This document shows positions 32,499 to 64,000 of a stretch of 64,000 bases of DNA, in pieces. Positions within the stretch are counted from its first letter, which is position 1. Each line of letters begins with the position of its first letter. The notes below the pieces were generated by a model. The model searched no databases and was not told the origin of the DNA. It saw nothing but the letters and a program-made list of their open reading frames with translations. Made by a program: the position numbers and the translations under genes. Source of the stretch: Humulus lupulus (lineage: Eukaryota; Streptophyta; Magnoliopsida; Rosales; Cannabaceae); contig NC_084794.1 in NCBI RefSeq assembly GCF_963169125.1, positions 72,451,665 through 72,515,664 of the forward strand. The letters are read 5' to 3'.

Positions 32499-35400
32499 TT
32501 AATCACTTTCATCACTATCGGTTACATCTTCTGAATCACTAAGTAATGCTTCTTCATCAATATCCTCATTGTCTAATTCGTTTTGACATTCATTGTAATC
32601 AATATCATCGATTTCAATTTCGTCAATATCTTGCCGAATAAGAATATCATCAACATTGGTTGAATCAAATGTAATATCAATGTCGCTTGAGAATTCTTCT
32701 TGATATGCTTCACGATTAGTAGTAACGGGTCCAACATCATCATAATTACTATCTTGTGGCTTTGATGGTATTTCCCAAATATGACGATGGTTTACCTTTT
32801 GCACCACTTTCCAATTTTCACCTCTTTTTATGTCGTCTAAATAGAATACTGAATTAACTTGGTTTGCAAGGACAAATGGTTCATCTTCAAACCATTGTGA
32901 GGCAACATTTATACTAGTAATGTTATACTCAGTATAAATTCTATGGTCACTCTCATTGGTGTTATACCAAGAACATTTGAATAATATCACCCTATTAAAA
33001 TAGATATAATGTACTTCCCATATTTCATTGATGACACCATAAAAATCACAAAGGTTCCCATCATATTCTACCTCAACTCGAATTCCACAATTTTGAGTAA
33101 TGCGTCTTTCATCTCGAGTTTTTGTGTGATATCTAACTCCATTAACCATACAACCAGCATATGTGCAAATCGAAAAATTAGGTTGAATTGCAATGGCATA
33201 CAAATCATCTTGGGCTTTAGAATATGATATTTCATTCATTCTTTTAACCTGAGAATATAGTTTTCATAGTTAAAATGAGATAAAGAACCATATCCCATAT
33301 GAAAGAATTATAAATATATTAACGTACTTTATCTTCAAACCAAGATGGAAATTCTTGCTTTTGTGCTTGATCATTATCTGAAACGCCTTTGGATTGTAAA
33401 AACAATCTATGTTCTTTGATTTCAAAAAAAGTACTCTCAAATAAGAACTTTTATATGTAAAAGAAAACAAAAAATATTGGCCATACTTAAGATGATCAAC
33501 AGAAAACTTACTTTAAATATGGCTCCAACTCAGGACAATTATTCACAATGTACCATATTCCGTTGTTCTTCAGTTATTGAGATTGATGATTGTTTTCCAA
33601 ATGGTCTAGTTGGCATATTGAATATAGACAATGTTGATTGTCTTCTTACCCCAACCTCATCTGGATTTCGATCTGGATGATTGAAGCGGATTTCTATGCC
33701 ATGAAGATACATTGAACAAAAATTTAATGCCTCACTAATAATATATCCTTCAGCTATAGAACCTTCAGGGCAAGCTTTGTTCTTTACATACTTTTTCAAA
33801 TGACCTATTTCCCTATAAAAATATTATACAATTAATATACATTAGTACATAGTTTGTACTTAATAAAAATCAAAAAATTATTTTTCAAATATATTATTTC
33901 TTAAGGTAATATTAAATTATATTACCTTTCAATTGAATACATCCATCGCATTTGTACTGGACCTCCTAACTTAGCTTCCATTGGCAAGTGCACCGCTAGA
34001 TGAATCATTACATCAAAAAATGCAGGAGGGAAATTTTTTTCCATCTTACATAGTGTGAACACAATGCCCTCTTCCAAAGCATCTAAATCTTTCACATACA
34101 ATGTCCTTGCGCATAGTTTTTGAAAAAATAAGGACAATTCAGCAATCACAGACATCATTTTTTTTTTCAAATATGGTCTTACACTAATGGGTAACAACAT
34201 TTGTAATAAGATGTGACAATCATGACTTTTCAACCCAGTTATCTTCCCATCTTTCATATTAACATTGTGAGACAAGTTTGCAGCATATCCATCTGGAAAT
34301 TTGATAGATTGTAAGAACTCACAAATTTGCTTGCGTTCCTTCTTTGATAACGTATAACAAGCTGCTGGTTTCACCCACTTGTTTCCTTGCCTTTTCATTT
34401 GCAATTGTTTACGAATTTTCAAATCTTGTAAGTCCAATCGTGCATTGTCGGTATCCTTAGACTTCCCATCAATGATAAATATTGTTCCAACAACATTGTC
34501 GCATATATTTTTCTCAATATGCATCACATCCAAATTATGCCTTAGTTTTAATTTAGGCCAGTATTCTAATTCCCAAAATATACTTTTACGCCTCCAATTT
34601 GTTTTATTTTCATAGCCTGCTTTCTTCATTTGGTTTTTATAATCATTCATAATATCAACATATTTACCTGGCCTACATGTCCACAGATGGTCCAATTTAT
34701 CTGCAATTTCATCACCTATTAATTTTCTAGCGGCAGACCGTCTTTCAATTGTACCATCGTACTCCTTATCAGTGCGCCACTCATGTTCAGCACACAAATA
34801 TCGACGATGTCCCATGTAACAAATTTTACCCCTAATTCGAAATGAAGATGTGTCATCCTCGCAAATAGGACATGCCTTATACCCTCAAGTGCTATACCCA
34901 GACACAGTGCCATATGCAGAAAAATCATTAATTGTCCATAATATAGCAGCACGCATGATAAAGTATGTTTTGTCGACAACATCAAAAGTTTGTACCCCTT
35001 TCTCCCACAATTCTTTTAACTCTTCGATTAAAGGTTGTAAATAGACATCTATATCCTTACCGGGAGCACGACGCCCAGGAATTAGTAATGACATCATTAA
35101 GAATTCTCGTTTCATACATATCCATGGCGGCATGTTATATGGCATCAGTATTACTGGCCACATACTATACGAGTTTGATAAATCACCAAAAGGATTAAAC
35201 CCATCAGTTGCAAATCCTAACCTAATATTTCGAGGTTCTTTAGCAAAATCGGGGTATTGCTTATCAAAATCCTTCCAAACCGCTGCATCTGCCGGATGTC
35301 TAAGTACACCTTCAGTATCAACACGTTCTTCTTTGTGGCACCTCATATCTGATGATGTATGTCTTGACATAAAAAGTCGTTGCAAACGTGGAGTTATAGG

Positions 35401-36200
35401 AAAATAATGCATCTTTTTATGTGGTATTTTCTTGCCTTTGGTTCCTTTAAACTTATATCTTTCATGACCACAAATATGACAATTTTCAGCATCTTTATTG
35501 TCTTTCCAATATAAGGAACAATCATGCTCACATACATGAATTGCTTCATATCCTAAACCAAGATCATGTAATATTTTCTTAACATCATAATAAGTATTTG
35601 GGATTTTTATATCATCAGGAAATGCTTCCTTAAGAAAGTACTAGTCAACACTTTTATATGCATTAGCTTAACGATGAATGTTAAACTTGTGAACTTTTTA
35701 CATCCAGGGTACAACTCTTTTTCTACTTCAGCAAATAAGTTATGAAATTTTTGCCCCTTCTCTTTTCGGTGAGTTGAATCCCCAAAGTTTGCAAAACTAC
35801 TCTTTGTAGGGTCTTGTTGAGTTAAATCTTCAATCGCTGGGATCATATCATCATCACTAGTGTAATTATTGTCACTCTCTTCAGCATCATCGACATCATC
35901 AAGATCATCAACATCTTCAAGATCATCGAAATCATTAGCATCATCCTCACCATCACTTTCATCTACAATATTCTCCCCGTGATGTACCCATTTAACATAG
36001 TGGGTATAAAATAATTTTATGAAGATATGACGCTCAACTGTCTCCAAGTCATGAAAGTATAAATTCATACACATGACACATGGACATCGAATCTTATTCT
36101 CATCATTCAAGTGATCTCTTGATAATGTAATGAAGTTCTTCAATCCATTGATAAACTTGGTAGATAGTCTGTTCTTATTAGAAGTCCAACTCTTATCCAT
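32499..36200 (-). pseudogene. TNP2-type CACTA transposase (broken)
   Basis: Start ATG 36200 with the transposase-associated domain (MDKSWTSNKNRLS, RCPCVMCMN, VKWVHHGE) and an Asp/Glu-rich spacer. The TNP2 core follows at about 35640-33926: LGLGYEAIHVCEHDCSLYW, CHICGHERYKF, DGFNPFGDLSNSYSMWPV, RYLCAEHEWR, LKLRHNLDVMHIEKNICDNV. It leads into DUF4218 (NFPPAFFDVMIHLAVHLP, GGPVQMRWMYSIER, ACPEGSIAEGYI) and DUF4216 (32499-33239: YGVINEIWEVHY, ILFKCSWY), ending in an acidic tail. Defects: frameshift with small deletion near 35640, in-frame TGA at 34885-34887 within the ST-GYKACPIC motif, and a frameshift near 33575. This enzyme would cut and join the element ends. Confidence 0.9.
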
Positions 36201-46290: not shown

Positions 46291-49200
46291 TCATTGGTGA
46301 TACTTGCGTAGGTGTTCTCCATTACAATAGCGAGGAATGAGATCTCCATTTAAGCGTGCAAGTTTATAAGTGCCTGGGTGAAGGACTTCATCAATTTGGT
46401 AAGGCCCTTCCCAATTTGGCCCGAGTACTCCAGTAGCTTGGTCGCGGGTGTTAAGGAAAACTCTTCGGAGTACAAGATCTCCAACATTGAATTTTCTTTC
46501 TCGCACTTTAGAGTTGAAATACTGGGCGACCTTCTGCTGGTATGTAGCTACTCGGAGCTGGGCTTGTTCACGTCTTTCATCAATCAAGTCCAAGGATTCC
46601 ATCAGTAGCTAGCTGTTAAAGTCCTGATCGTATGCTAATCTGCGGTGCGAGGGTGGATCCAACTCAACAGACAACATGGCATCATACCCGTATGCTAAGG
46701 AAAACGGGGTATGACCTGTTGCTGTTCTGTGGGAAGTTCTGTACGACCAAAGGACTTCGGGCAACTGTTCTGGCCATGCTCCCTTAGCTTCTTCGAGTCA
46801 TTTCTTTAGGGCATCCTTCAACGTTTTGTTAACTGCTTCGACTTTCCCATTCGCCTGGGGATGAGCGACTGAAGAAAAGCTTTTGATAATATCATGACGT
46901 TTGTAGAAGTCCGTGAATAGATCACTGTCAAACTGAGTGTCGTTATCTGAGACTATCTTCTTTGGTAATCCATAGTGACAGATGATGTTTTTGACTACGA
47001 AACCAAGCACTTCTTGGTCGTTATGGTTGCGAGTGGCTCAGCTTCGGCCCATTTGGTGAAGTAGTCGACGACAACCATTGCATACTTTACACCACCTTTT
47101 CCTGTAGGCAAAGATCCGATTAGATCAATTCCCCAAACTGCGAAGGGCCATGGACTCTGCATCTGTTTTAATTCGTTGGGAGCTGCTCATGGGATTTTAG
47201 AGAATCTCTGACACTTGTCACATTTTTGCACGAACTCCATTGAGTCTTCATTCATGGTTGGCCATAAATATCCCTGCCTTAGGATCTTTTTTTACAGGCT
47301 TTGCCCCCCAGCGTGGTCCCCGCAAAAACCTCCGTGCACCTCTTTTGATTAACCCTTTGGATTTCTCCTTTGTAACACATCTGAGAAGTGGCAGTGAGTA
47401 TCCCCTTCGGTACAGGATTCCATCGACCAGGATATACCTAGCAGCTTGCCGCTGAAGGGTCCTAGCTTTGTTTCTGTCCGCTGGTAGCACGCCACTTGAC
47501 AGATACTCTGCATATGGTGTCATCCATGTATCCGCCATCTGGATGACCAAAGTGGTTTCTGCTGCTTGGATGCTTGTTTTTGATAGTCGCTCGACTGGCA
47601 CTATGTTAAGAGTATCAGCATATTTTGCACTTGCCAACTTTGCCAAAGCGTCCGCGTTGGAATTCTTATCGCGAGGTACTTGCTGGAGACTATATCTGTC
47701 GAACTGGGCTAATAGATCATTTGCTTTGTTCAGATAGGCGACCATCTTAAAACCTTGCGCCTGATACTCTCCCAAGACTTGGTTCACCACCAGCTGAGAA
47801 TCACTATAGACGTCAAGCGCTTTTATGTTCATATCCTTGGCTAATCACAGTCCAGTGAGTAATGCTTCATATTCAACCTCATTGTTAGAAGCAGTGAAGT
47901 CAAATCTAATTGCACAGTGAAATTGATTCCCTTCTAGCGTTATCAATATCACTTCTGCTCCTGCGTGGGATTCATTAGATGAACTGTCTGTGAACAATTT
48001 CCACGAGGGTGCCTGGATTTAACATTCAGGCTCGTTGGGCTCCTCAATCTGCTCGCCACCTGCGGGCTCTGTGAATTCGACGATGAAGTCAGCTAAGGCT
48101 TGTCCTTTTATCGCTGCTCACGGCAAGTAAGATATATCGAATTGCTCGAGTTCGACTGCCCACTTTAGTAATCTTCCAGCAGCCTCTGGCTTTTGCAGAA
48201 CTTGCCGAAGAGGCTGGTCGGTCAATATCATAATCGGATGAGCTTAGAAGTAAGGCCGCAGCTTCCTAGAGGCCAAAACTAAGCAGTAGGCTAACCTTTC
48301 GATGGGGGGATACCTCAATTCTTCTTCGATCAGCCTTTTGCTTATGTAATAGACAGCCTTCTGCACACCTTCTTCTTCTCTTACAAGAACAGCACTAGCA
48401 GCGTAATCTGTGATTGCCAGGTAGACGAACAAAGTCTCTTTATCGACCGGCTTTGACAGGATGGATGGCTGCACCATATGTGCTTAAGTGCTTGAAAGGC
48501 CTGTTCGCACTCATCTATCCATTCAAATTTCTTATTTCCTCTTAGTAGATTGAAAAATGGGACGCACTTGTCTATTGATTTTGAAATAAATTTACTTAGA
48601 GCAGCAATCCTCCCGGTCAGGCTTTGGACATCCTTAATCTTCACTGGCGACTTCATCTCGATCAGGGTTTTATTTTCTCGGGATTAGCTTCAATTCCTCT
48701 TGAGTTAACTATAAATCCCAAGAACTTCCCTGATCCTACTCCAAGGGAGCATTTAAGGGGATTTAGCTTCATCCTATATTTATTCAGGACATTGAAGCAT
48801 TCCTGCAAATCCTTTACATGCCCTTCTACTTTCTTCGACTTAACCAGCATGTCGTCGACGTAAACCTCCATGTTTGCACCGATTAGCTCCTTAAACATGT
48901 GGTTGACAAGTCTCTGGTAAGTCGCACAAGCGTTTTTTAAACCAAAGGGCATCACTTTGTAACAGTAGAGCCCTGTATCAGTTCGAAAGCTAGTGTGATC
49001 CTCATCAGGGGGGTGCATACTGATTTGATTATACCCAGAGTATGCACCCATGAATGAGAGGATCTCGTGTCCTGCAGTGGCATCGACTAGCTAGTCGATC
49101 CTCGGGAGTGGGAAACAGTCTTTGAGGTAGGCTTTATTTAGGTCTGTAAAATCCACGCACGTACGCCACTTGCCATTCGGCTTGGGCACGAGTACGGGAT

Positions 49201-49597
49201 TGGAGATCCACGATGGAGAAAATTCCACCCTGATGAACCCATTCTCCTTCAGCTTCTCGACTTCCTCTTTCAAAGCCTTTGATCTATCTTTGTCAAGCAG
49301 CCTTCTTTTTTGTTGCACAAGTGGAAATCTTTTGTCAATGTTCAGGACATGGCTGAAGATTGCAGGATCTATCCCGACCATGTCTTTATACGACCAGGCA
49401 AAGACATCCTGGTTCCTCCTTAAGAACTCCACCAGTGCTTGTTTTGTTGTTGTCTCTAAGTTTTTACCGACTTTCACAACTCTGGTCAGATTTTCCTCAT
49501 CGAGTTGGACCTCTTCAAGGTCCTCGATGGGTCCCACTTCTTCTAAAAAATCCCCAAAGCGAGGATCTAAGTCTCTATCCTCACTTGGGGCAACGCC
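46291..49597 (-). pseudogene. Tat pol polyprotein remnant (RT, RNase H, integrase)
   Basis: Decayed counterpart of the intact pol at 58552-61848. Recognisable parts: RT 49091-49537 (LVQQKRRLLDKDR, VLVPKPNGKWRTCVDFTDLN) and 48662-49051 with intact YVDD; RNase H linker 48244-48656; second RNase H 47600-47832; H2C2 and integrase core 46798-47250 (IVSDNDTQFDSDLF, AHPQANGKVEAVNK); C-terminal 46291-46602 (GVLGPNWEGPYQID). Stops include TAG 49091-49093 after PRID, TGA near 46799 where the intact copy has an Arg codon, and TAG near 46613, plus several frameshifts. Confidence 0.88.
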
Positions 49598-49600
49598 CTA
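49552..49600 (-). promoter_or_regulatory. Putative readthrough module at the gag-pol junction (decayed copy)
   Basis: In-frame TAG (49600-49598), spacer GGCGTTG, then arm CCCCAAGTGAGG (49590-49579), 14-nt loop, arm CCTCGCTTTGGG (49564-49553). Eleven of twelve pairs form, one of them G-U. Upstream and downstream frames are in phase. Same layout as 58549-58596. Confidence 0.6.
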
Positions 49601-49886
49601 TTTGGTGAGATTATCACCTGAGCGGGCTTGAACATCAGTTGCCATTTGCAACTCCTTCCCGGTGGCATCTCTCAATACACCTTTCTTTGCCTTGGTGATC
49701 GAGGCATTGTAGCACTGCCTCACTTCCTTTTGGTTTCCCAACACACATCCTATCCCTGCGTCCATTGGGAATTTCATGGTGAGGTGCCATATAGAAGTGA
49801 CGGCTCGAAGGTCGACTAGAATTGGTCTCCCTATCACAGCATTGAACGCTGAAGGACAATCAACTACTATAAAAGTAGTGAGTAAT
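49601..49886 (-). pseudogene. Tat gag-protease remnant, C-terminal part
   Basis: Minus-strand [20 protein letters not shown] and [13 protein letters not shown] match IGRPLLTNLHAVVSIWHLS and CYNASIAKAKKGA in the intact copy, at the end of the protease region. It runs to the TAG at 49600. Upstream it is cut by the solo LTR at 49887 and continues at 53527. Confidence 0.85.
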
Positions 49887-51989
49887 TGTAACGCCCTGGT
49901 TACCCCAGAACAGTTACGGTGAATGGTGGACCGGAAATTTGACTCGCTACCTGAGTCCTTTGGTCAAAAACGTGTTCTAAGTGTAATTAACAGGTTAAGG
50001 TATAAAACTAATAAAAAGGAAATGAATATTTTCATTACAAACTGTTCTGCAGAGCTAATCAAAACATTTACAAGTTGTTCTCAGTACAAGATGGTCGTTA
50101 CTGTTTTAAATTTACAATCCTGCCGTCCTAAGCGACAAAAATAGGGTAAACCCCCTAGTTCCTCTGAGAACTCCTTGGCTGTGGTGGTCAAGCGGCCGAA
50201 TATGTACACATCACCACTTAAGCTCTCCACTCAAGGCTAAGTGAGCTTTTCTTTTCCTTTACCTGCACCACATAGCACCCATGAGCCAAAGCCCAGCAAG
50301 AAAACATAACATTATACGTAAACATCATCAAATGACTATCATTATAATCACACTGAGCACAAGCTTTCAAACAAATGAGTGAATATCACTTGAAGTCCTG
50401 ATAAACCATACTGAGTGACTGACAAGCATGTCACTATTTCAAATGGAAGAGTGGCTGCTAGGTAAGCCACTAGCCTTCAACAGGTTCTGGTAAACCATAC
50501 TGAGTGACTGACAAGCAAGTCACTATTTCAAGTGGGAGAGTGGCTGCTAGGTAAGCCACTAGCCTCCAAGCGCTTATTTCATTTATTGACCTTGAGGTCG
50601 GTTGGCATTAATTCTCTTTGAGTCATTCAATGCAGATAGTCGATTAGATCTAATCTTTGATGGCTTGCATTAACACGCTAAGGCCGTTCTGACTAATGAG
50701 TCAGCACAACGTGACCAGTGCCCAGTACCACTGCCGAACCTGACTAATAAGTCACAGCTTCATAGTTGATACTAGCACCTTTGCCAAATCTGACTAATGA
50801 GTCAGTACCATGCACAAGTGAGCAACATATGCTAAGCATTCTATATTCAATCCATGTCCATATTTATACAACCAACATGCCTCATGAATATCCATGCATG
50901 TCATACTTGGGGGCAGTTTTCTTACCTCTGGTTCGAGCTAGACTGAATAAAAGAACGACCCCTAAGAACGATCAACCTTTTGGTCTTTTAGCGGTTACCT
51001 AGTCATAACCAATTATGGGATTCCATCAATAAAATGAATAATAAAAGGTTCCCAAACCAAAACCTATCCTCTGGGACCTCAAACACTACTCAACCGGGTA
51101 GTAGGTTCAACCCGAGGCCTTAGGCTTGAATCCCCATGCTAAAAACACTATTCTGGCCAAAAAAGCCCTGATGGGTTGCGGCTCACCCTCCTGACAGAGG
51201 GGTTTCCACCTCTGAAGCCAACTTAGGCCGCGGCACACCCTAGCCAGGCCGCGGCTCATTACGCATTTTAGCCTAAAACCAGCAACGCACCAGCAAACCT
51301 CCCTTGCGTTTTCCCTTGGAACCAGCCCTTCAAACTAACCCAAAACACCAACCTAACACCCAATTTAACCCCTAAACTTTATCTACAACTCACTCTCATC
51401 ATAACCCAAGTAAAGCATCAACCTAACCCCTTTTAATTCCAACTATCCACCAAGTGATTACAAGCTGAAAACTCAAAGCTAAAACAGAGTATAACTAGAA
51501 ATCAATGGCTAAAACTCATCTCAAACTCGTGATTGAACCTCCTTCAATGGTTGAACCAAGTCAACGAACTCAGCCCCTTGATTTCCTAGCTTAATACCCT
51601 ACTTTGAGCTCAAAAACACCAAAGGAAAGATGAAGGTGTTATCCCCAAAAATTGGAGATCAATGACATGGAAATAAAGGTGACAAGTGGCAAGTGCGTGG
51701 TCAATAAAAGACATATTAATAGTCAATAAATACATTGACTCCTCAGAGTTGTGATAAAGTGACCCGGTAGACTGACGAAGAATTTGGACTGCTTGAGAAG
51801 CCCCAAGAAGTCCGGTCAGACCTTAGTCCGAGGGGTCTAAGAGATGGGGTCGAACCTTGGTCCGAGGAGAAGCCAAGGAGCATGTGTTCGGACCTTGGTC
51901 CGAGGAGGAGAGCCCCAAGAGGTTCGGTAAAACCACCTTGGTCCGAGGAGAACCCAAGGAGGGTATGTTCGGACCTTAGTCCGAGGAGA

Positions 51990-52165
51990 GTTAAGGAGAG
52001 TGCATCCTAGGAGAGCTAAGGAGAGTGCATCCTAGGAGATCCCAAGGGTGTGGTCCAAGGAAAGCTAAGGAGAGTGCATCCTAGGAGAGCTAAGGAGAGT
52101 GCATCCTAGGAGATCCCAAGGGTGTGGTCCGAGGAGACCCCAAGGGTGTGGTTCGAGGAGAGCCC
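51990..52165. repeat. About 25-bp tandem repeats in the nested Tat LTR
   Basis: Alternating units AAGGAGAGTGCATCCTAGG (four copies) and CCCAAGGGTGTGGTCCGAGG-like (three copies). Confidence 0.75.
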
Positions 52166-52532
52166 AAGAATTTGGTCTTTATGCATATGTCCAACCAGTG
52201 CATGGTTGTCCAAATAAAGAAATGGCATGCTAGAGGAGAGTGTCATGTTAGAGGAGAGAAGTGCATGTCCAGCACTTGTGTGTCCTACCAGCAAGTGTAT
52301 GTCCGACCAGCATGTGTATGATCGACCAGAGTGGAGGTGAGGTGGATCAACTAGCTAGAGGAGGACTAAGTCAAGATTCCCAGAAACGGGTTCAACAAGA
52401 TACGCGGGAATCTCTCATTCTTCCCACAAATGGGGGGTTTTGTTACATTTTGAATGTTTTTTGTAATTTAAATGTAATAAATATAATAAAATATCCTGAT
52501 TCTAGGGGATACCATATGTATGACCCTAAGCC

Positions 52533-52540
52533 TATAAATA
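52533..52540 (+). promoter_or_regulatory. TATA box of the nested Tat LTR
   Basis: TATAAATA in CCTATAAATAGAGGG, conserved with the other Tat LTRs. Confidence 0.6.
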
Positions 52541-53526
52541 GAGGGCTTATGGGATTAGAGGGGGGCTTCTGCTTCTTCTTTCTAGACTTTTGGGGAAATT
52601 TGGGTCTGAGTATTCTAGAGAGAGAAAGTGCTGGTATTTGGAAGGATTCTTGTATTTTTGCAATCTGTACTGAAGAAACTCAGTTGGCTCAGTCCATCTG
52701 ATCTTGAGTACATATCTATAATCACAACTCTAAGTGGATTAGGCTATTACCGACTGATCGGGGCTGAACCACTATAAAAATCTTGTGTGTTATTTACTTT
52801 TCTTGATAAAACTGTCGGTGTCGTTTAAATTCTCTTGAAGGTTTATCGTTTTTGACGTTCTCACGTCGTTGGCCAAAAACTTGGTCAACAGAAGGGAATT
52901 GATGTACGGGAAGAAGAAAGAGAAACCCTGTTTTTCTCTGTTCTTTCTACAGCCATCCAAAGCCATATAAATCCAAACTCAAATGACTAAAATACCCCTA
53001 GGTCTTTTAAGGCTTCTAAAACCATTTCAAGGGTAAAATTGGTACTTTCAACTTATCCCGTTAATCATAATTAACGCTTCCCAATTCCCGCTAATCTCAA
53101 TATTCTCAAACACCAATAATTCACATCCCGTTACCCTTTAACGCCCGGTAACATTCTAATCATTAAAACACCCCGACACTCACCCCGAGCCCCAAGCTTA
53201 AGCCTGTTATGACCAAACCAATATTTAACATACCATGATCGTCTCATGCCGAATGGCTCGAACAAACCCACATTATAATGTGGTCTCAAAATATATCACC
53301 AACATGCGTACAAATAAACAATTTACCCTCAACGGGCCAAATTACCATCACACCCCTGTAGTTAAAAAAAATATGGACTCACATGCATGCATTTCACATC
53401 ATATTATAATATAATCAACATATACATGCATTTTATCAATTAATAACATAATTAAGCAAGTATGGCCCTCCCGGCCTATTATTCACACCGTTAAACACAT
53501 CGGAGAATTCGGGGCATTACAGTAAT

Positions 53527-54910: not shown

Positions 54911-55195
54911 TGGAGGAGTATACCTCGAGTGTAGTTATCCTTTGGTCCAAGGATAGCCATGCGTATGCCACCTTTGACCTACGTAAAGCTTGAAGAATAG
55001 TCAACATGCATGAGAAGCTACGTCAAACTGCCCGAAACTACTTCAGTGAGAATTGGTCCAAGCATCCGGGAATCACTCAATCCTCACTCGAAATTAGGGA
55101 TCAGTTATATTTTGAATGTTTATTTTGTAATATAAATATTAGGTAAATAATAGAATATCCCTATCAAAAGGGGATATCAGTTGAGAACCCAGGTC

Positions 55196-55203
55196 TATAA
55201 ATA
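55196..55203 (+). promoter_or_regulatory. TATA box of the plus-strand Tat LTR
   Basis: TATAAATA in GTCTATAAATAGGGA, 350 bp before the LTR end. Confidence 0.65.
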
Positions 55204-55548
55204 GGGACTTGGGAGGATCGTAAAAGGACTTTTGGTAAAATTGAGAGTGAATCTGTATTCTAGAGAGAGAAAGTGTGTTTTTCTTGAGAAAAACCCATTT
55301 TTGTGTTCTGGAATATCTCACACTGAAGAAACTCAGTTGACACGGTTCATCTGATCTTGAGTGCGGATACAGTAATAAAATCTCTAAGTGGATTAGGCTA
55401 TTACCGATCATCGGGGCTGAACCACTATAAAAACCTCGTGTTATTTACTTTCGTTCATAAAAAAACTGTCTGTTGTCGTTTATAATTCTCTTGAAGGTTG
55501 TCGTAGTTGACATTCTCACGTCGTTGGCTAAATTCATAGTCAACATTT

Positions 55549-55599: not shown

Positions 55600-58551
55600 A
55601 TGGCGCCTAAGAACACCACCGCGGCCTCCAAGAGGGCAAGCACCTCCAGGGAGCATGCTAGATCGGAGAATCCCAACGTTCAAGATCGTGAGAATGAGCC
55701 TAGGGTCGTGCTTGAGGATGTAGCTCCTGAAGTTGAGGAGCTCCAGGAGACCATGAGTGCGTTCCAGGATGAGTTGGCCCAGTTCAATGCTAGGCAGGAG
55801 GCCTTTGCTGAGGAAATGGCCAAGCAGAGACAAGAGATGGACGCTAGGAGCGAGGAGATCCGTCGACAGCAGGAGGAGGCCGACAGGCGACATCGCGAAG
55901 CTGCTCTTGCTTTGGAGGCAGCTGCGCAGTTGACCCGAGCCAATGCTCAAGCTGCGCCTCGGGTGATACCCACTCAAGAAGCAAGGACCACAGAGGCTGG
56001 TCATAAGAAAGCTGATAGACCAGCAAGAGGTGGTAATAACCCGCCTGGTCATGAGGAGGAGGGAGTACGATCACGCACTGCCTCTACCCAAAGGGGGAAT
56101 TCTAAAACCCCCTCAAGGAGCCACAGATCAGAGACTTCCAGGTCAGGAAGTCATAATTCTGGCAGTAAGAAAACACCTTCTGAGCAGGGGCACAACAAAG
56201 CCCCTCGTGGCAAGGAAACTTCACACTTCAAAGATGGACATGGGCGTGATGAAGGTGACAGTTACCACACCAACCAGTTGAAGGAGAAGAATAATAACTG
56301 ACAAGGAGGAGATGATCAACCAGCTCAAACGGGGAAGCCACCACGGCATCCCAACCAGCGTAATGGCAAGGAGCACGCTCCACCTAGTAGGCCCTCCGAA
56401 AAGACTCGGAGTACGGTGTTCGACCGGTTGGGAAAGAACACTGCTCAGAAGGACCTAAGGGACATCATTGATGACAGAAGGAGGCCCGCTCCAGTCGAAG
56501 GGCAGGAGCCAATCCGTCCTACTAGTCGAGTAGAAATACTTGACGTGGATACGCCAGATAGGGGTGCCCGACCAAGCGGTCCCGAAGGTGCATCCCCAGC
56601 AGTGGCCCCAGCCATCCAAGCCCAGCTTGATGCTTTGATGGCGGCAGTACAAGGTTTATCCAAACAACCAGTTATTGATCCGGTAGACCACAGAAGTGGT
56701 AGCCCTTTTTGTGCTAGAATAAGAGCAGCCCAACCACCAAGGAAATACAAGGCGCCGGTATTGCCAGTTTATACAGAAAAGGCAGACCCGGTGAGACACG
56801 TTGGAAAGTTCGAAGATCAGATGGAGCTGCTTGGGGTGAGTGACGATTACCGTTGTAGAGTCTTCCCCACCACCTTGTCAGACACTGCCCAAGAGTGGTA
56901 CTGGAAGTTCAAACCCGACTCCATCACCTCTTGGGAGAGCCTTAGGAAGGAGTTCTGCAGGCAGTTCAGCACTGCCCGAACCCCTCCAGTTTATGCCAAC
57001 CACTTGGTGGATATTAGGCAAGGAAAAGATGAATCTCTCAAGAACTACATACAGAGGTTTATGAGAGAAGCCAATCGGGCTACCGCTGTTGGAGATGAAG
57101 GGAAGATGGTTGCAACCTCCTCGGGTATTATTTATCGAAGTCCATTGTGGGACAGCATTCACCGCCATCCAATTTCAACTTTACAACAGTTCTTGGACCG
57201 TGCAGATAAGTACATGAAGTTGGACGATGCCATTGAGAAAGGAGAGAACGGGTTGAACAACCCAAGTGGATCGGGGGATACTCCAAAGGATAGTGGAAAT
57301 GATCAAGGCGGTAGTAAGAAACGTGGGAATAACGGGTCTGACCGCCGCAGTGAGAAGAAAGCTAAGTCTGGGTCGAATGACAAACCTACGAAGTATGAAC
57401 CTCGATTCACCAACTACACTACTCTTTCGGCAACCCGAGCGGAGATCTATCTAGCCAGCCATCAGGAGGTCCCTTACCGAAGACCCCCTCCGATCAAGAA
57501 GGAAATGAATAAGAGGGATAAGAACAAGTTCTGTCGATTCCATGGAGACTATGGTCATGACACGAACGAGTGTAACCACCTTAAGGATGAGATAGAGTTT
57601 CTCCTCCGTTCGGGGAAACTAAAAAAATATAAGGCAGAGAAGACCCAAGGAGAGGGAAGCAACAATAATCCTGGGTTCAAGCGACAACGGTCCCCACCTT
57701 TGCAACCTGAACCTGTGGACTTCACACTAGATACAATATGTGGAGGACCACATCTTGCGGGTGATAGCAGCAAGGCGAGGGAAAGATATGCTCGCACCCT
57801 TCGTCATGAGTTGGAGGCAGCGTCCACATCCGAGGTTATGACGGTGGAGGAGAGACCATCAAAGAACCCAAGGTATGAAAGTGAGTCCCTCACCTTCACT
57901 GAGGAGGATGCCAAACACGTGAGGTACCCTCACAATGACCCTCTTGTAGTAACAGTTCAAATAGCTAACATGAAGGTGAAAAGATGTCTGGTTGATACGG
58001 GAAGTTCCGTAAACATTATTTATAAGTCCTCTTTTGAAAAAATGAAGCTATCCATCAATGACTTGAAGCCATGCTCTCACGTCATTTACGGGTTTACTGG
58101 AGAGGGACTATCACCAGCTGGAACAATAAAGTTACCAGTCACCACGGGGGAAGCTCCAAAGCATGAAACCGTGATGACTGATTTTTTGATTGTTGACTAC
58201 CCGTCTTCCTACAATGTGGTTATTGGTCGACCACTACTCACCAACTTGCATGCGGTAGTTTCAATTTGGCACCTCTCTATGAAGTTCCCGACCAGCGCTG
58301 GCGTAGGCTGCGTCCAAGGAGACCAAAGGGAAGCTAGAGAGTGTTATAATGCCTCCATAGCTAAGGCAAAGAAAGGTGCCAAGGAAAACAACATGATTGT
58401 GTGTGTTGAAGGAGGGGAAGTGGATGAGATGGACGTAGACCAGAGTCTTGTCGTAGTAAACGATGAAGAGGTGTTGAAGGAGTGTGACCAGGAGAGCACT
58501 CCCAGTTTGAAAAAGCAGAAGACCCCATCAGGTGATGAAGTCACCAAATAG
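55600..58551 (+). CDS. Tat gag-protease ORF, one premature stop
   Basis: ATG 55600 to TAG 58549-58551, 983 codons before the stop, with a single in-frame TGA at 56299-56301. Residues 1-230: acidic coiled coil (EELQETMSAFQDELAQFNAR, EMAKQRQEM) and a Ser/Arg/Lys-rich spacer. About 380-500: Retrotrans_gag-type domain (RKYKAPVLPVY, LSDTAQEWYWKFKPDSITSW, FCRQFSTAR). About 644-658: one CCHC-like knuckle (FCRFHGDYGHDTNEC). About 785-905: retropepsin with LVDTGSS (Asp about 799) and VVIGRPLL. Gag packages RNA and the protease matures the polyprotein. Apart from the TGA it looks usable. The terminal TAG is discussed at 58549. Confidence 0.9.
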
Positions 58552-58596
58552 GGCGTTGCCCAAAGCGAGGGAAGAGATATTGATCCTCGCTTTGGG
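58549..58596 (+). promoter_or_regulatory. Putative stop-codon readthrough module at gag-pol junction
   Basis: ACC AAA TAG G, then spacer GGCGTTG (58552-58558), then a perfect 12-bp hairpin: CCCAAAGCGAGG (58559-58570), 14-nt loop, CCTCGCTTTGGG (58585-58596). The frames on both sides of the TAG are the same, and pol has no in-frame ATG before 58612 (where the first candidate start is GTG). Stop, spacer, loop length and hairpin recur in the older copy at 49552-49600. Retroviruses of the murine leukaemia type use a UAG followed by a spacer and RNA structure in this way; here it is inference. Confidence 0.6.
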
Positions 58597-61500
58597 GATT
58601 ATGAGAGTAATGTGGGACCGTCCGAGGAGTTAGAGGAGGTCCCTATAGATGAGAATGACCCGACAAGAGGGGTCAAGATTGGGAAGAAGTTGAAAGCTGA
58701 GGTGAGAGCACGGCTGATAGAGTTCTTGCAAAGGAATCAGGATGTCTTCGCCTGGTCTCACAAGGATATGGTGGGTATCTCACCAACTGTGATCAGCCAC
58801 GTGCTCAACGTGGATGAAAGGTATCCAGCGGTACAGCAGAAGAGGAGGTTACTTGACAAGGAGCGAGCAAAGGCTCTTAAGGAGGAAGTAGAGCGGTTGA
58901 AGGAGAACGGGTTTATTAGAGAGGCATACTACCCAGCTTGGGTTTCAAACCCAGTCTTGGTGCCTAAACCCAATGGAAAGTGGAGGACTTGTGTAGATTT
59001 TACTGATCTAAACAAAGCATGCCCGAAGGATTGTTTCCCTTTACCAAGAATAGACCACTTGGTGGATGCAACCTCTGGTCACGAGACCTTGTCCTTCATG
59101 GACGCATATTCGGGATACAACCAAATCAACATGCATCCTCCTGATGAAGAACATACCAGCTTCCGAACGGATATAGGGCTCTATTGCTATAGAGTGATGC
59201 CCTTCGGGTTAAAGAATGCAGGAGCTACTTTCCAGCGCTTGGTGAATGGCATGTTTCGTGACTTAATCGGCAAAAGCATGGAGGTATATGTAGATGATAT
59301 GCTGGTGAAGTCGAAGGAAGCTGAGGGGCACGTGGGAGACTTAGAGGAGTGCTTTGCAATCTTGAGGAAGTATAACATGAAATTAAACCCCCTCAAATGT
59401 TCGTTTGGAGTGGGTTCTGGGAAATTCCTTGGGTTTATTGTCAACTCCCGAGGAATAGAAGCAAACCCTGAAAAGATCAAGGCTCTCATGGAGATGAAGT
59501 CTCCCACAAGAATAAAGGATGTGCAAAGCTTGACTGGGCGGATTGCGGCTCTAAGCAGGTTCGTCTCAAAATCAACGGACAAGTGTGTCCCGTTTTTTAA
59601 CCTGCTTAAAGGAGGCAAAAAATTCGAGTGGACCGCAGAGTGTGAACAAGCTCTCCAGGCGATAAAGGAACATTTGGCTCAACCTCCTGTTCTTTCTAAG
59701 CCAGTTGATGAAGAGGACCTACTTATATATCTAGCAGTCACGGAGCACGCTGTTAGTGCTGCTTTAGTACGTGAGGAGGATAAGGTACAGCACCCAGTGT
59801 ATTACGTTAGCAAGCGTTTGATAGGAGCGGAGTCCCGATACCCCATGATTGAGAAGTTGGCTTACTGCTTGGTACTTGCATCACGAAAGTTGAGGCCATA
59901 TTTCCAAGCACACCCCATCAAGGTCCTCACTGACCAGCCTCTTCGCCAAGTTTTGCAAAAACCGGAGTCGTCTGGTCAGCTACTTAAATGGGCGGTCGAG
60001 CTAGGCCAGTTTGAAATCAAGTACCAACCAAGGACTGCTATTAAGGGTCAAGCCTTGGCAGACTTCATCGCTAAGTGTACCGGAATCGTTGAGGTCCCTA
60101 ACCAACAGGAGAGTGCTACTGGGTTAAAAGAAGAAGTTCCTGCTTGGCAACTTTTCGTTGATGGATCGTCGAACGAGCATCATTCAGGAGCTGGGATTAT
60201 ACTAGTCACACCAGAGAAGCACCGAATTCATTGTGCACTGAGGTTCGGGTTCAATGCTTCTAATAACGAAGCGGAGTATGAGGCCCTCTTAGCAGGCTTG
60301 CGACTGGCTAGAGATGTACGTGCCCAGTCGGTGGAAATAAACAATGATTCCCAATTGGTGGTTTATCAAGTTTTAGGTGAGTACCAAGCGAGGGGCCTAC
60401 GCATGGTGGCATACTTAAACAAAACTAAAGATTTACTAGCCCAGTTCGAGGAGTATACCATCAAGCTAGTACCAAGGGAGCAGAATTCCAATGCTGATGC
60501 TCTGGCAAAGCTTGCAAGTGCGAAAGATGCCGAAACACTGAATATAGTTCCAGTAGAGTATTTGGCAGAGCCAAGCATTGATAGAGAAGAGGCCATGCTG
60601 ATTACGATAGTCGACACCTGGATGACTCCCATCATTGCTTACCTTGAACATGGGACACTCCCAGATGGTCGTAATGAAGCAAGGAAAGTTATGAGGCAAG
60701 CTGCTAGGTACACCATGGTGGATGGAGTGTTATATAGGAGAGGATACTCCTTACCTCTCCTCAGGTGCATAACCCCCGACCAGTCAAAGAGCTTATTAGC
60801 TGAAGTGCATGAGGGGTTTTGTGGAGATCATGCTGGGGGGCAGAGTCTATCTAAAAAGATCTTGAGGCAAGGATTTTTCTGGCCTACTATGAACGAAGAC
60901 TCTATGGAATATGTGAAAAGGTGTGACAAATGCCAAAGATTTTCTAAGGTACCCAGAGCACCCCCAAATCTTTTGAAGCAAATGCAAAGTCCGTGGCCTT
61001 TTGCAGTATGGGGCATTGATTTGATCGGGAAGTTACCCAAAGGAAAGGGAGGAGTGCAATTCGCTGTGGTCGCGGTAGATTATTTTACTAAATGGACTGA
61101 GGCCGAACCATTAGCCACGATTACATCGAAGAAAGTGTTGGACTTTGTTGTTAAAAATATAATATGTCGCTATGGTCTACCTAAAAAGATAGTGTCTGAC
61201 AATGGCACCCAGTTTGACAGCGACATATTTACCGATTTTTGCACTCGGCATGGCATCACCAAAAGTTTCTCCTCGGGTGCCCATCCTCAGGCCAATGGGC
61301 AGGTTGAAGCAGTGAACAAAACATTGAAGGACACTTTGAAGAAGCGCCTAGAACAAGCTAAGGGTGCTTGGGCAGATGAGTTACCAGAGGTCCTTTGGTC
61401 GTATAGGACTACCGCTCGGACGGCAACTGGCCATACCCCATTCTCTTTAGCATATGGGTATGAAGCCATGTTACCTGTGGAGATAGATCCACCCTCTCAT

Positions 61501-61848
61501 AGAAGGATCGTTTACAACCAAGAGGAGAACCATCAGTTGTTGGCAGAATCATTGGACTTCCTCGAAGAGAGAAGAGAGGAGGCAAGCCTCAGAGTAGCAG
61601 CTCATCAGCAAAAAGTGGCACGCTACTTCAATTCCAAAGTGCGAGATCGAAAGTTCCAGGTCGGAGATTTAGTCCTAAGGAAGGTGTTTGTTAGAGACCC
61701 AGCAGCTGGTGTGCTAGGACCGAACTGGGAAGGACCATATCAAATTGAACAAATCTTACCGCCCGGCACTTACAAGCTTGCTCGATTGAATGGGGAGCTG
61801 ATCAGAAACTACTGGAATGGCAAGCACTTGAGAAAATATTATCAATAA
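58552..61848 (+). CDS. Tat pol polyprotein: RT, RNase H, second RNase H, integrase (intact)
   Basis: 1098 codons in the gag frame; residue numbers here count from 58612. RT: PKPNGKWRTCVDFTDLN, FPLPRIDHLVD, MPFGLKNAGATFQRLVN, YVDD 226-229. RT-linked RNase H: LLIYLAVTEHAVSAALVRE. Second, archaeal-like RNase H: FVDGSS (Asp 517), NNEAEYEAL (Glu 555), NNDSQLV (Asp 579), NSNADALAK (Asp 629). Integrase: H733, H740, C771, C774 zinc site; catalytic Asp 803, Asp 863 and Glu 899, giving the DD35E spacing. C-terminal GPNWEGPYQIE. No stop or frameshift. It copies the RNA genome to DNA and integrates it. A dual RNase H is a known Tat-lineage trait. Confidence 0.95.
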   Translation, partial: GVAQSEGRDIDPRFGDYESNVGPSEELEEVPIDENDPTRGVKIGKKLKAEVRARLIEFLQRNQDVFAWSHKDMVGISPTVISHVLNVDERYPAVQQKRRLLDKERAKALKEEVERLKENGFIREAYYPAWVSNPVLVPKPNGKWRTCVDFTDLNKACPKDCFPLPRIDHLVDATSGHETLSFMDAYSGYNQINMHPPDEEHTSFRTDIGLYCYRVMPFGLKNAGATFQRLVNGMFRDLIGKSMEVYVDDMLVKSKEAEGHVGDLEECFAILRKYNMKLNPLKCSFGVGSGKFLGFIVNSRGIEANPEKIKALMEMKSPTRIKDVQSLTGRIAALSRFVSKSTDKCVPFFNLLKGGKKFEWTAECEQALQAIKEHLAQPPVLSKPVDEEDLLIYLAVTEHAVSAALVREEDKVQHPVYYVSKRLIGAESRYPMIEKLAYCLVLASRKLRPYFQAHPIKVLTDQPLRQVLQKPESSGQLLKWAVELGQFEIKYQPRTAIKGQALADFIAKCTGIVEVPNQQESATGLKEEVPAWQLFVDGSSNEHHSGAGIILVTPEKHRIHCALRFGFNASNNEAEYEALLAGLRLARDVRAQSVEINNDSQLVVYQVLGEYQARGLRMVAYLNKTKDLLAQFEEYTIKLVPREQNSNADALAKLASAKDAETLNIVPVEYLAEPSIDREEAMLITIVDTWMTPIIAYLEHGTLPDGRNEARKVMRQAARYTMVDGVLYRRGYSLPLLRCITPDQSKSLLAEVHEGFCGDHAGGQSLSKKILRQGFFWPTMNEDSMEYVKRCDKCQRFSKVPRAPPNLLKQMQSPWPFAVWGIDLIGKLPKGKGGVQFAVVAVDYFTKWTEAEPLATITSKKVLDFVVKNIICRYGLPKKIVSDNGTQFDSDIFTDFCTRHGITKSFSSGAHPQANGQVEAVNKTLKDTLKKRLEQAKGAWADELPEVLWSYRTTARTATGHTPFSLAYGYEAMLPVEIDPPSHRRIVYNQEENHQLLAESLDFLEERREEASLRVAAHQQKVARYFNSKVRDRKFQVGDLVLRKVFVRDPAAGVLGPNWEGPYQIEQILPPGTYKLARLNGELIRNYWNGKHLRKYYQ

Positions 61849-62767: not shown

Positions 62768-64000
62768 TCACAGGCAAGCTCCTCTAGAGGGTTGATCGAC
62801 TCCCTCCTCTGCATCAGCTGCTCCTCTTGCTCGAAATGATATAGCAGAGCAGGTTGGGGTGAGTGCAGGAGGGTTGGCAGCTTCTTCAGCGGCTCTTGCT
62901 TCACATCTGGCAAGATCCTCTGCTTGGGCCTCCTTGGGGAAACAATCAAGATTAAGAGGCTTGTTCAGCTTCCAAACCTTATAGAAGCAGTCAAAACTGG
63001 CCTCCTCAAAGCGAATCAAGTCAAGCTCTTTTTCTTGCTTCAGCTCTTCGTTCTCGCTAATCAACCTCTCATTGTCTCGAACTAACTCTTTAATATCAAG
63101 AGATTTCTTCTCCAATTGAGTTGTCAAGGAAGCATTGTTTTGAGCCTGTTTTTTGAGAGACTCGTCCCGTTCAGCTATAGTTCTCTCTGCTTGCTCCAGC
63201 TTGGACCTGGCCTCCACCAGTTGATCGTCCTGCACCTTGATCAACTCCTTGTAATCTACGGCTCGAAGCTGAGCATGACCAATGGTGACAAGTGACTGCA
63301 TGGAAGACAAAAAGTTAATACAAGTAAAAATACTAATAACAAAGTATCTCGAGGAAAAATGCTTACCTTCATCAATTGAGCGAGTCCTCTCTTCAAGACA
63401 ACTTCGACACTAAGTCGAGGGTAGGAGTCTAGGCTTTGAAGCGTCGATGCATCACGGCCAATATCCTCAAGAAGCCCCTTGCCCAGGTCACTAACAGCAC
63501 GAAAAAGCTCACTCGAACTACCCTGGTGAGTAGGAGTTAGGCTCGCAGAAGGAGGAAGGGAAGAGGGGGTCAATGGCGGAAGTGTAGTTGGTCCCCCAGG
63601 TTGCCTCCCTTGACTTGGCGATACTACCTTCTGAATCCTCTGTGGAGGCATAGAGCCACTTCCATCACCAGTTTTCCTCTTTGAAGCAACGCAATCTCTG
63701 AACATGTCTGAATCTGCCAAGGATGAAAAAACAAGATTGTTAGAGAAATAAACATAATGAAACGTATGCAAGTGTATGCTACAATTGTGATACTCTCTAA
63801 TTACCAATTATCAAAAATATTCCTATTTTCACTAAGCATGTGTTACCTGCGTTGAAGATCTGATCAAGGAACTCATCCTCGTCGTCCGAGGATGAGCTAA
63901 GTTCCCCTTCAACCTGGATAGCTTTTCCTTTCCCAGGTTGAGCGGGAATAGTAGATCTACGCTGAGGATCAGGCTCTCTAATGACTAGGTCGCCAGATCT
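62768..64000 (-). CDS. Tat antisense gene, 3' exons (partial, intact reading frame)
   Basis: Three exons on the minus strand: 64000 (window edge) to 63847, 63713-63367 and 63295-62768. The introns have CAG|GTAACA..TTGGCAG and AAG|GTAAGC..ATGCAG borders, and the phases join without a stop. The product has an acidic SSSSDDEDE run, a Ser/Pro-rich spacer, a coiled coil (EARSKLEQAERTIAERDESL, NERLISENEELKQEKELDL), FDCFYKVWKLNKPLNLDCF and an Ala/Cys-rich tail. It matches the plus-strand gene at 42042-43554, whose 5' part carries a Transposase_28-like domain. Function unknown; antisense genes downstream of pol are known for Tat elements. Confidence 0.8.

Follow-up and report, generated by a model that had tools for sequence, protein, structure and literature searches.

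A candidate UAG readthrough signal between gag-protease and pol in a Tat-type retrotransposon lineage of hop (Humulus lupulus)

In the 64,000-nucleotide stretch of Humulus lupulus DNA analysed here (hereafter the window; contig NC_084794.1, positions 72,451,665 to 72,515,664), the gag-protease and pol ORFs of a Ty3/gypsy LTR retrotransposon meet at an in-frame UAG. This junction is probably a programmed, type-III-like readthrough signal that sets the ratio of Gag-protease (Gag-Pro) to Pol. The assignment is supported by the position and conservation of the stop, by the letters that surround it, by a hairpin predicted in both of the lineages compared, and by constraint on the pol protein. From these features of the sequence we infer that readthrough occurs, at what rate it may do so, and that the hairpin would drive it. 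Little is known of how LTR retrotransposons of plants achieve an excess of Gag over Pol. A 2025 review lists two main strategies, ribosomal frameshifting and the use of two transcripts (PMC12786077), and in a survey of recently active Retand elements 37 clusters (59%) carry gag and pol as a single ORF and the rest as two (PMC11963269). Because the signal is short and conserved and the family has many copies, the Gag/Pol question can be addressed with a small reporter and with RNA or ribosome-profiling data that already exist.

The window holds a copy of the element on the forward strand, called copy A, and an older copy, called copy B, on the reverse strand. The coding part of copy A spans 55600-61848 (+). 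Its gag-protease and pol share one frame, and a frameshift between them was rejected for that reason. The features of copy A are listed here with the evidence for each.

55600..58548 (+): gag-protease ORF, interrupted by a TGA at 56299-56301; gag domain by Pfam
58549..58551 (+): UAG stop between gag-protease and pol; from sequence, a stop in 30/30 copies and TAG in copy B
58552..58558 (+): spacer GGCGTTG, 7 nt; from sequence, identical in copy B
58559..58596 (+): perfect 12-bp hairpin with a 14-nt loop, beginning 7 nt past the UAG; from sequence and folding
58559-58570 (+): 5' arm of the hairpin, CCCAAAGCGAGG; from sequence
58571-58584 (+): loop of the hairpin, 14 nt; from sequence
58585-58596 (+): 3' arm of the hairpin, CCTCGCTTTGGG; from sequence
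58614..58643 (+): second stem, GGGACC (58614-58619) / GGTCCC (58638-58643); from sequence and folding
58552..61848 (+): pol ORF with RT, RNase H, a second RNase H-like domain and integrase; from domains and translation

An initial annotation of this DNA had given the TAG, the spacer, both hairpin arms and the 14-nt loop at exactly these coordinates. It had also proposed the second stem, which exists, with its 3' arm placed correctly and its 5' arm one base off; five pairs of this stem are predicted with copy B too. Its description of the two ORFs as separated by a single TAG holds only from 56302 onward, because the gag of copy A contains the in-frame TGA. The protease region of copy A was identified from a VDTGSS motif, which we take to be that of a protease; Pfam at E 0.001 gave no protease match. 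Smaller potential structures were also seen near the stop. A candidate mini-hairpin, GGTGA/TCACC (5 bp), lies at 58531-58545 (+), 3 nt upstream of the stop, and is proposed from sequence only; its counterpart in copy B at 49604-49618 (-) has identical arms, with the differences confined to the loop. A possible small hairpin at 58552-58561 would pair GGGC, using the G of the UAG, with GCCC on either side of GUU. Its letters are identical in copies A and B, and it might compete with the main stem.

By its domain order, copy A is a Tat-type Ty3/gypsy LTR retrotransposon, arranged as in Ogre and Retand. RNase H (residues 388-487 of pol), RVT_3 (536-655) and integrase (743-911) follow one another in the Pfam assignments, and a second, archaeal-type RNase H between RNase H and integrase is described for Ogre/Retand-type Tat elements (PMC6317226), the arrangement found in copy A. 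The non-coding intron that separates the gag-pro and RT ORFs of Ogre is not present in this form, as the ORFs abut at one TAG. Retand is described as carrying an antisense ORF with TRP28 (PF04195) between pol and the 3' LTR, in a region of 2.9-6.6 kb (PMC11963269). No match to TRP28 was found at E values up to 5 in the four antisense ORFs examined after pol, in a window that stops 2.15 kb past copy A pol as against the 2.9-6.6 kb of that region. Antisense ORFs at 62771-63807 (-) lie after pol, as in Retand, and one of them weakly resembles coiled-coil families, below the Pfam cut-off. Elsewhere in the window, 32499-35640 (-) contains pieces of a DNA transposon (Transposase_21 (tnp2), DUF4218 and DUF4216) that is presumably CACTA-like.

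The junction was then compared among copies across the 2.48 Gb genome, where a first look gave 3298 junction candidates, 40 of which were scored and 30 returned as loci, the window copy included. These 30 are the closest copies, nearly identical, and not a random sample; copy B adds few changes to them. A stop stands at the junction in 30 of 30 copies (29 TAG and one TAA), and a private nonsense mutation was rejected on this ground. When 56749-60400 (3652 bases) was mapped onto the other 29, over up to 3.65 kb, the junction stop was the sole in-frame stop seen, with no frameshift gap, in 17 of them, two of which were partly covered (3610 and 2468 bases). Differences from the window copy amount to 0.9% at first, 1.5% at second and 3.8% at third codon positions. 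The gag TGA at 56299-56301 is private to the window copy, with a sense codon in 14 of 14 others, all drawn from the 17 and including one with a frameshift gap and one with other stops at the start of gag. Pairing in the 12-bp stem is intact across the 30 copies save for a mismatch in one copy and a wobble in one, and an extra possible pair, 58571-58584, is A-U in 17 copies and G-U in 13. Variation at the junction is not depleted within the 30 young copies (five variable sites against a mean of 6.6; 1324 of 3593 windows have no more than this), a result that tells against the readthrough reading. One of the three outcomes that the initial annotation had named as telling against readthrough, a sense codon in most intact members, is excluded by the stop in all 30 copies, by the 17 of 29 without another stop and by the TAG of copy B.

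Copy B extends the comparison to an older lineage, and its relevant features are as follows.

49553..49600 (-): copy B module, consisting of TAG (49600-49598), spacer and hairpin; from sequence and alignment
46294..49597 (-): copy B pol, decayed, with nine in-frame stops in the aligned pieces and frame changes between pieces

The two copies are 68.2% identical over 3499 ungapped columns. The TAG of copy B is exactly in register, and its spacer and hairpin 3' arm are identical to those of copy A. Two of the 12 positions of the 5' arm are changed; one of these stays paired as G-U, and the other gives a mismatch, or a bulge in an alternative register. The longest run of identity between the copies (58541-58561, 21 nt) is the block around the TAG and the second longest (58582-58600, 19 nt) is that of the hairpin 3' arm. 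When whole codons were shuffled, runs of both lengths arose in 3.8% of 20000 trials, a figure that asks for the run lengths only and not for both runs to sit at the junction. Codons for the same residue are letter-identical in 307 of 807 cases overall, in 10 of 12 inside the stop, spacer and hairpin module (P 0.0018, stop excluded), and in 16 of 18 in 58522-58600, a stretch picked after viewing the alignment. The excess of codon identity extends upstream to a 16-nt block at 58363-58378, past the protease region, that is identical in A and B. The protease of copy B is split by about 3.6 kb (49886-53519) resembling a nested, possibly related insertion, inside which 52405-52890 is 73% like 55067-55545 of copy A, with tandem copies at 51954-52151. 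Independent stops at the same codon of A and B were rejected: as the aligned part of copy B pol, about 1100 codons, has nine in-frame stops, the chance of coincidence at one given codon is below 1%, and the conserved letters would be left unexplained. That the stop is kept both across a large family and in an older sister lineage lends support to the reading of the initial annotation, in which readthrough would set the Gag:Pol ratio.

The predicted hairpin was assessed against several kinds of shuffled sequence. In copy A the 102 nt from the stop (58549-58650) fold at -39.9 kcal/mol (z -4.22), and none of 200 dinucleotide shuffles was as good; the junction fold of copy B has a z of -3.23, with one of 200 shuffles as good. 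With the protein kept and the codons redrawn, an equal fold was reached for copy A in 6 of 1000 sequences over 57 nt and in 1 of 1000 over 99 nt. The corresponding synonymous shuffles of copy B gave 22 and 44 of 1000. The three lowest-energy windows among the 1079 in-frame 57-nt windows of copy A pol start at 58558, 58552 and 58555, and the junction window of copy B ranks 7 of 1083. The hairpin is distinctive by its position, since perfect 12-bp inverted repeats (loop 3-20) occur elsewhere in the window, where eight overlapping matches fall at four places including the junction; 40 simulated windows contained 11 such matches.

Selection on pol bears on how the protein is reached. Over 1080 codons of pol, copies A and B show a pS of 0.90, silent sites being saturated, and a pN of 0.15; as the stop is present in both lineages, pol has therefore been selected as protein while the stop was kept. 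The first in-frame AUG of pol is at residue 73 in both copies. Codons 1-72 have a dN/dS of 0.15 between A and B, and the first 33 alone a dN/dS of 0.47, the silent sites there being conserved themselves. Because no AUG precedes residue 73 and these codons are nonetheless constrained, ribosomes most likely enter pol from upstream, via readthrough or after splicing.

An Ogre-like alternative, in which part of the transcripts lose the stop by splicing and the conserved sequence is partly a splice signal, appears unlikely. Both copies share a donor-like CAG/GTGAT at 58532, the stop could be removed with the frame intact by any of 43 conserved GT-AG pairs (60 nt or longer), and Ogre has a spliced intron at the same place (PMC6317226). 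The best of these candidate introns, however, are not U-rich and their pyrimidine tracts are weak. The leading one (58532-58669, 138 nt in both copies) has a tract value of 0.45, is 20% U and 50% AT, like the exon, and would delete residues that most relatives encode. Further, the ORFs adjoin at one stop in the hop element, whereas those of Ogre are described as lying 274 bp apart on average (PMC6317226), and in both copies the linker from protease to stop remains an open, in-frame sequence although its length differs by 93 nt. A separate origin of pol, from a promoter near the junction and inside the element or by internal initiation, is very unlikely. Although a junction promoter is reported to serve Tca2, an element with an in-frame stop (PMC2194720), a promoter has no need of an in-register stop or a kept spacer, and the 72 codons before the first AUG are under the constraint given above in both copies. 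Finally, it is very unlikely that the junction has no function, being an inherited dead stop in trans-mobilised elements beside a chance hairpin. In favour of this, non-autonomous Retand clusters exist (PMC11963269) and perfect 12-bp inverted repeats are found at three further places in the window; against it, pol stayed under purifying selection as silent sites saturated with the stop present in both lineages, the letters around the stop are conserved, and 0 of 30 copies has a sense codon.

Under programmed readthrough, most ribosomes would terminate at the UAG and yield Gag-protease, and a minority would insert an amino acid there and continue into pol, a step that the context AAA-UAG-GGC-GUUG and the hairpin located 7 nt downstream would promote. 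The product would be a Gag-Pro-Pol fusion that the protease could cleave, and Gag-Pro would be left in excess over RT and integrase. Type III readthrough signals are described as having a G or a purine-rich octanucleotide after the UAG, together with a 3' structure (PMC3542737). In the junction sequence, UAG-GGCGUUGC, the 3' G is present and the octanucleotide is not purine-rich; the predicted 3' hairpin beats shuffles in copies A and B.

A protein search with the start of pol found 6502 relatives among 7932 scored. Among the best 120 of these 6502, gag and RT domains occur in one protein in 38, and the residues following the stop of copy A were seen by eye in none. Contigs of 6.9-21.8 kb (ena or jgi) are the source of five of the 38; others are gene models from plants, in which a spurious intron may conceal a stop. 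Copies A and B group on their own (100/100) in a tree of 43 rows. Since A and B group apart and the post-stop residues appear in none of the best 120 relatives, the stop looks specific to the A/B lineage as judged on protein relatives. A protein search with the end of gag-pro gave 12 matches, none terminating at the junction motif, and another using the pol start gave no matches. Viral contigs gave no match to the pol start, 21 pattern matches with no relative among them when searched with a profile, and four stretches of unrelated context when searched with the junction pattern; genome contigs gave 0 matches to the junction pattern and six pattern matches, with no relative, when searched with pol. 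It is evenly balanced, in our judgement, whether this Tat lineage has its own compact readthrough module that sets Gag-Pro:Pol and has persisted as the family amplified greatly, in contrast to the continuous ORF of related Tat elements. Such a module may comprise a possible upstream mini-hairpin, AAA-UAG-GGCGUUG, the 12-bp hairpin and the second stem.

Candidate readthrough in a Tat element has already been cited. Candidates among rice gypsy-type elements are mentioned with the RIRE2 paper (Ohtsubo 1999) as reference (PMC2754532), and RIRE2 is classed as Tat/Retand (PMC6317226), so that by citation and classification the rice element shares with the hop junction both candidacy for readthrough and membership of the Tat clade. 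The initial annotation had known of no description of readthrough for Tat elements, among which RIRE2 is such a candidate. No hairpin-driven gag-pol readthrough signal in Tat elements was found in the open-licence PMC literature, by title and start of abstract, and the present junction is a strong candidate for one. Ogre, also of the Tat clade, carries gag-pro and RT-RH-INT on separate ORFs; it differs in the inter-ORF intron, averaging 274 bp and spliced in part of the transcripts (PMC6317226).

Among other LTR elements, SIRE1 is likewise from plants and is described as using stop suppression, but it belongs to Ty1/copia and its stop lies between pol and an env-like gene (PMC2829016). Sireviruses are reported to conserve an 11-bp stem where gag meets pol, and one subset conserves a UAG as well; they differ in being Ty1/copia, with pol in another frame (PMC5009743). 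Tca2 of Candida albicans resembles the hop junction in its in-frame stop, 8-nt spacer and predicted downstream structure or pseudoknot, and differs in that the stop is UGA, the element is Ty1/copia by a cited title, and a junction promoter was found (PMC2194720). Despite its stop, spacer and predicted pseudoknot, Tca2 gave no readthrough in a yeast test, according to the same source (PMC2194720), so a stop with a spacer and a predicted structure need not mean readthrough.

Closer parallels in the signal itself are found among viruses. The type III signals of Tombusviridae and of luteo/poleroviruses likewise operate in plant hosts with a 3' structure (PMC3542737). Their contexts are given as UAG-GGR in Tombusviridae and AAA-UAG-GUA in luteo/poleroviruses (PMC3542737), compared with AAA-UAG-GGC at the hop junction; these are RNA viruses, whereas the junction described here belongs to a retroelement and has a predicted local hairpin. 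Signals of the Tombusviridae type involve long-range pairing of the hairpin with a distal element, and the 3' end of the hop element falls beyond the window. Epsilonretroviruses, which are animal retroviruses, are described as having UAG-R and an extended stem-loop instead of a pseudoknot (PMC3542737). The analogy with gammaretroviruses drawn in the initial annotation holds in outline, as MLV and its relatives combine an in-frame UAG, a 3' G, a spacer of about 8 nt and then an RNA structure (PMC3542737, PMC2194720). It departs in the structure, a compact pseudoknot in MLV and here a simple hairpin predicted by folding tools that do not predict pseudoknots, and in the position of the stop, which in the hop element sits after the protease region. 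If the lineage does use such a module, a stop placed after protease would mean that protease is made at the level of Gag, unlike in gammaretroviruses.
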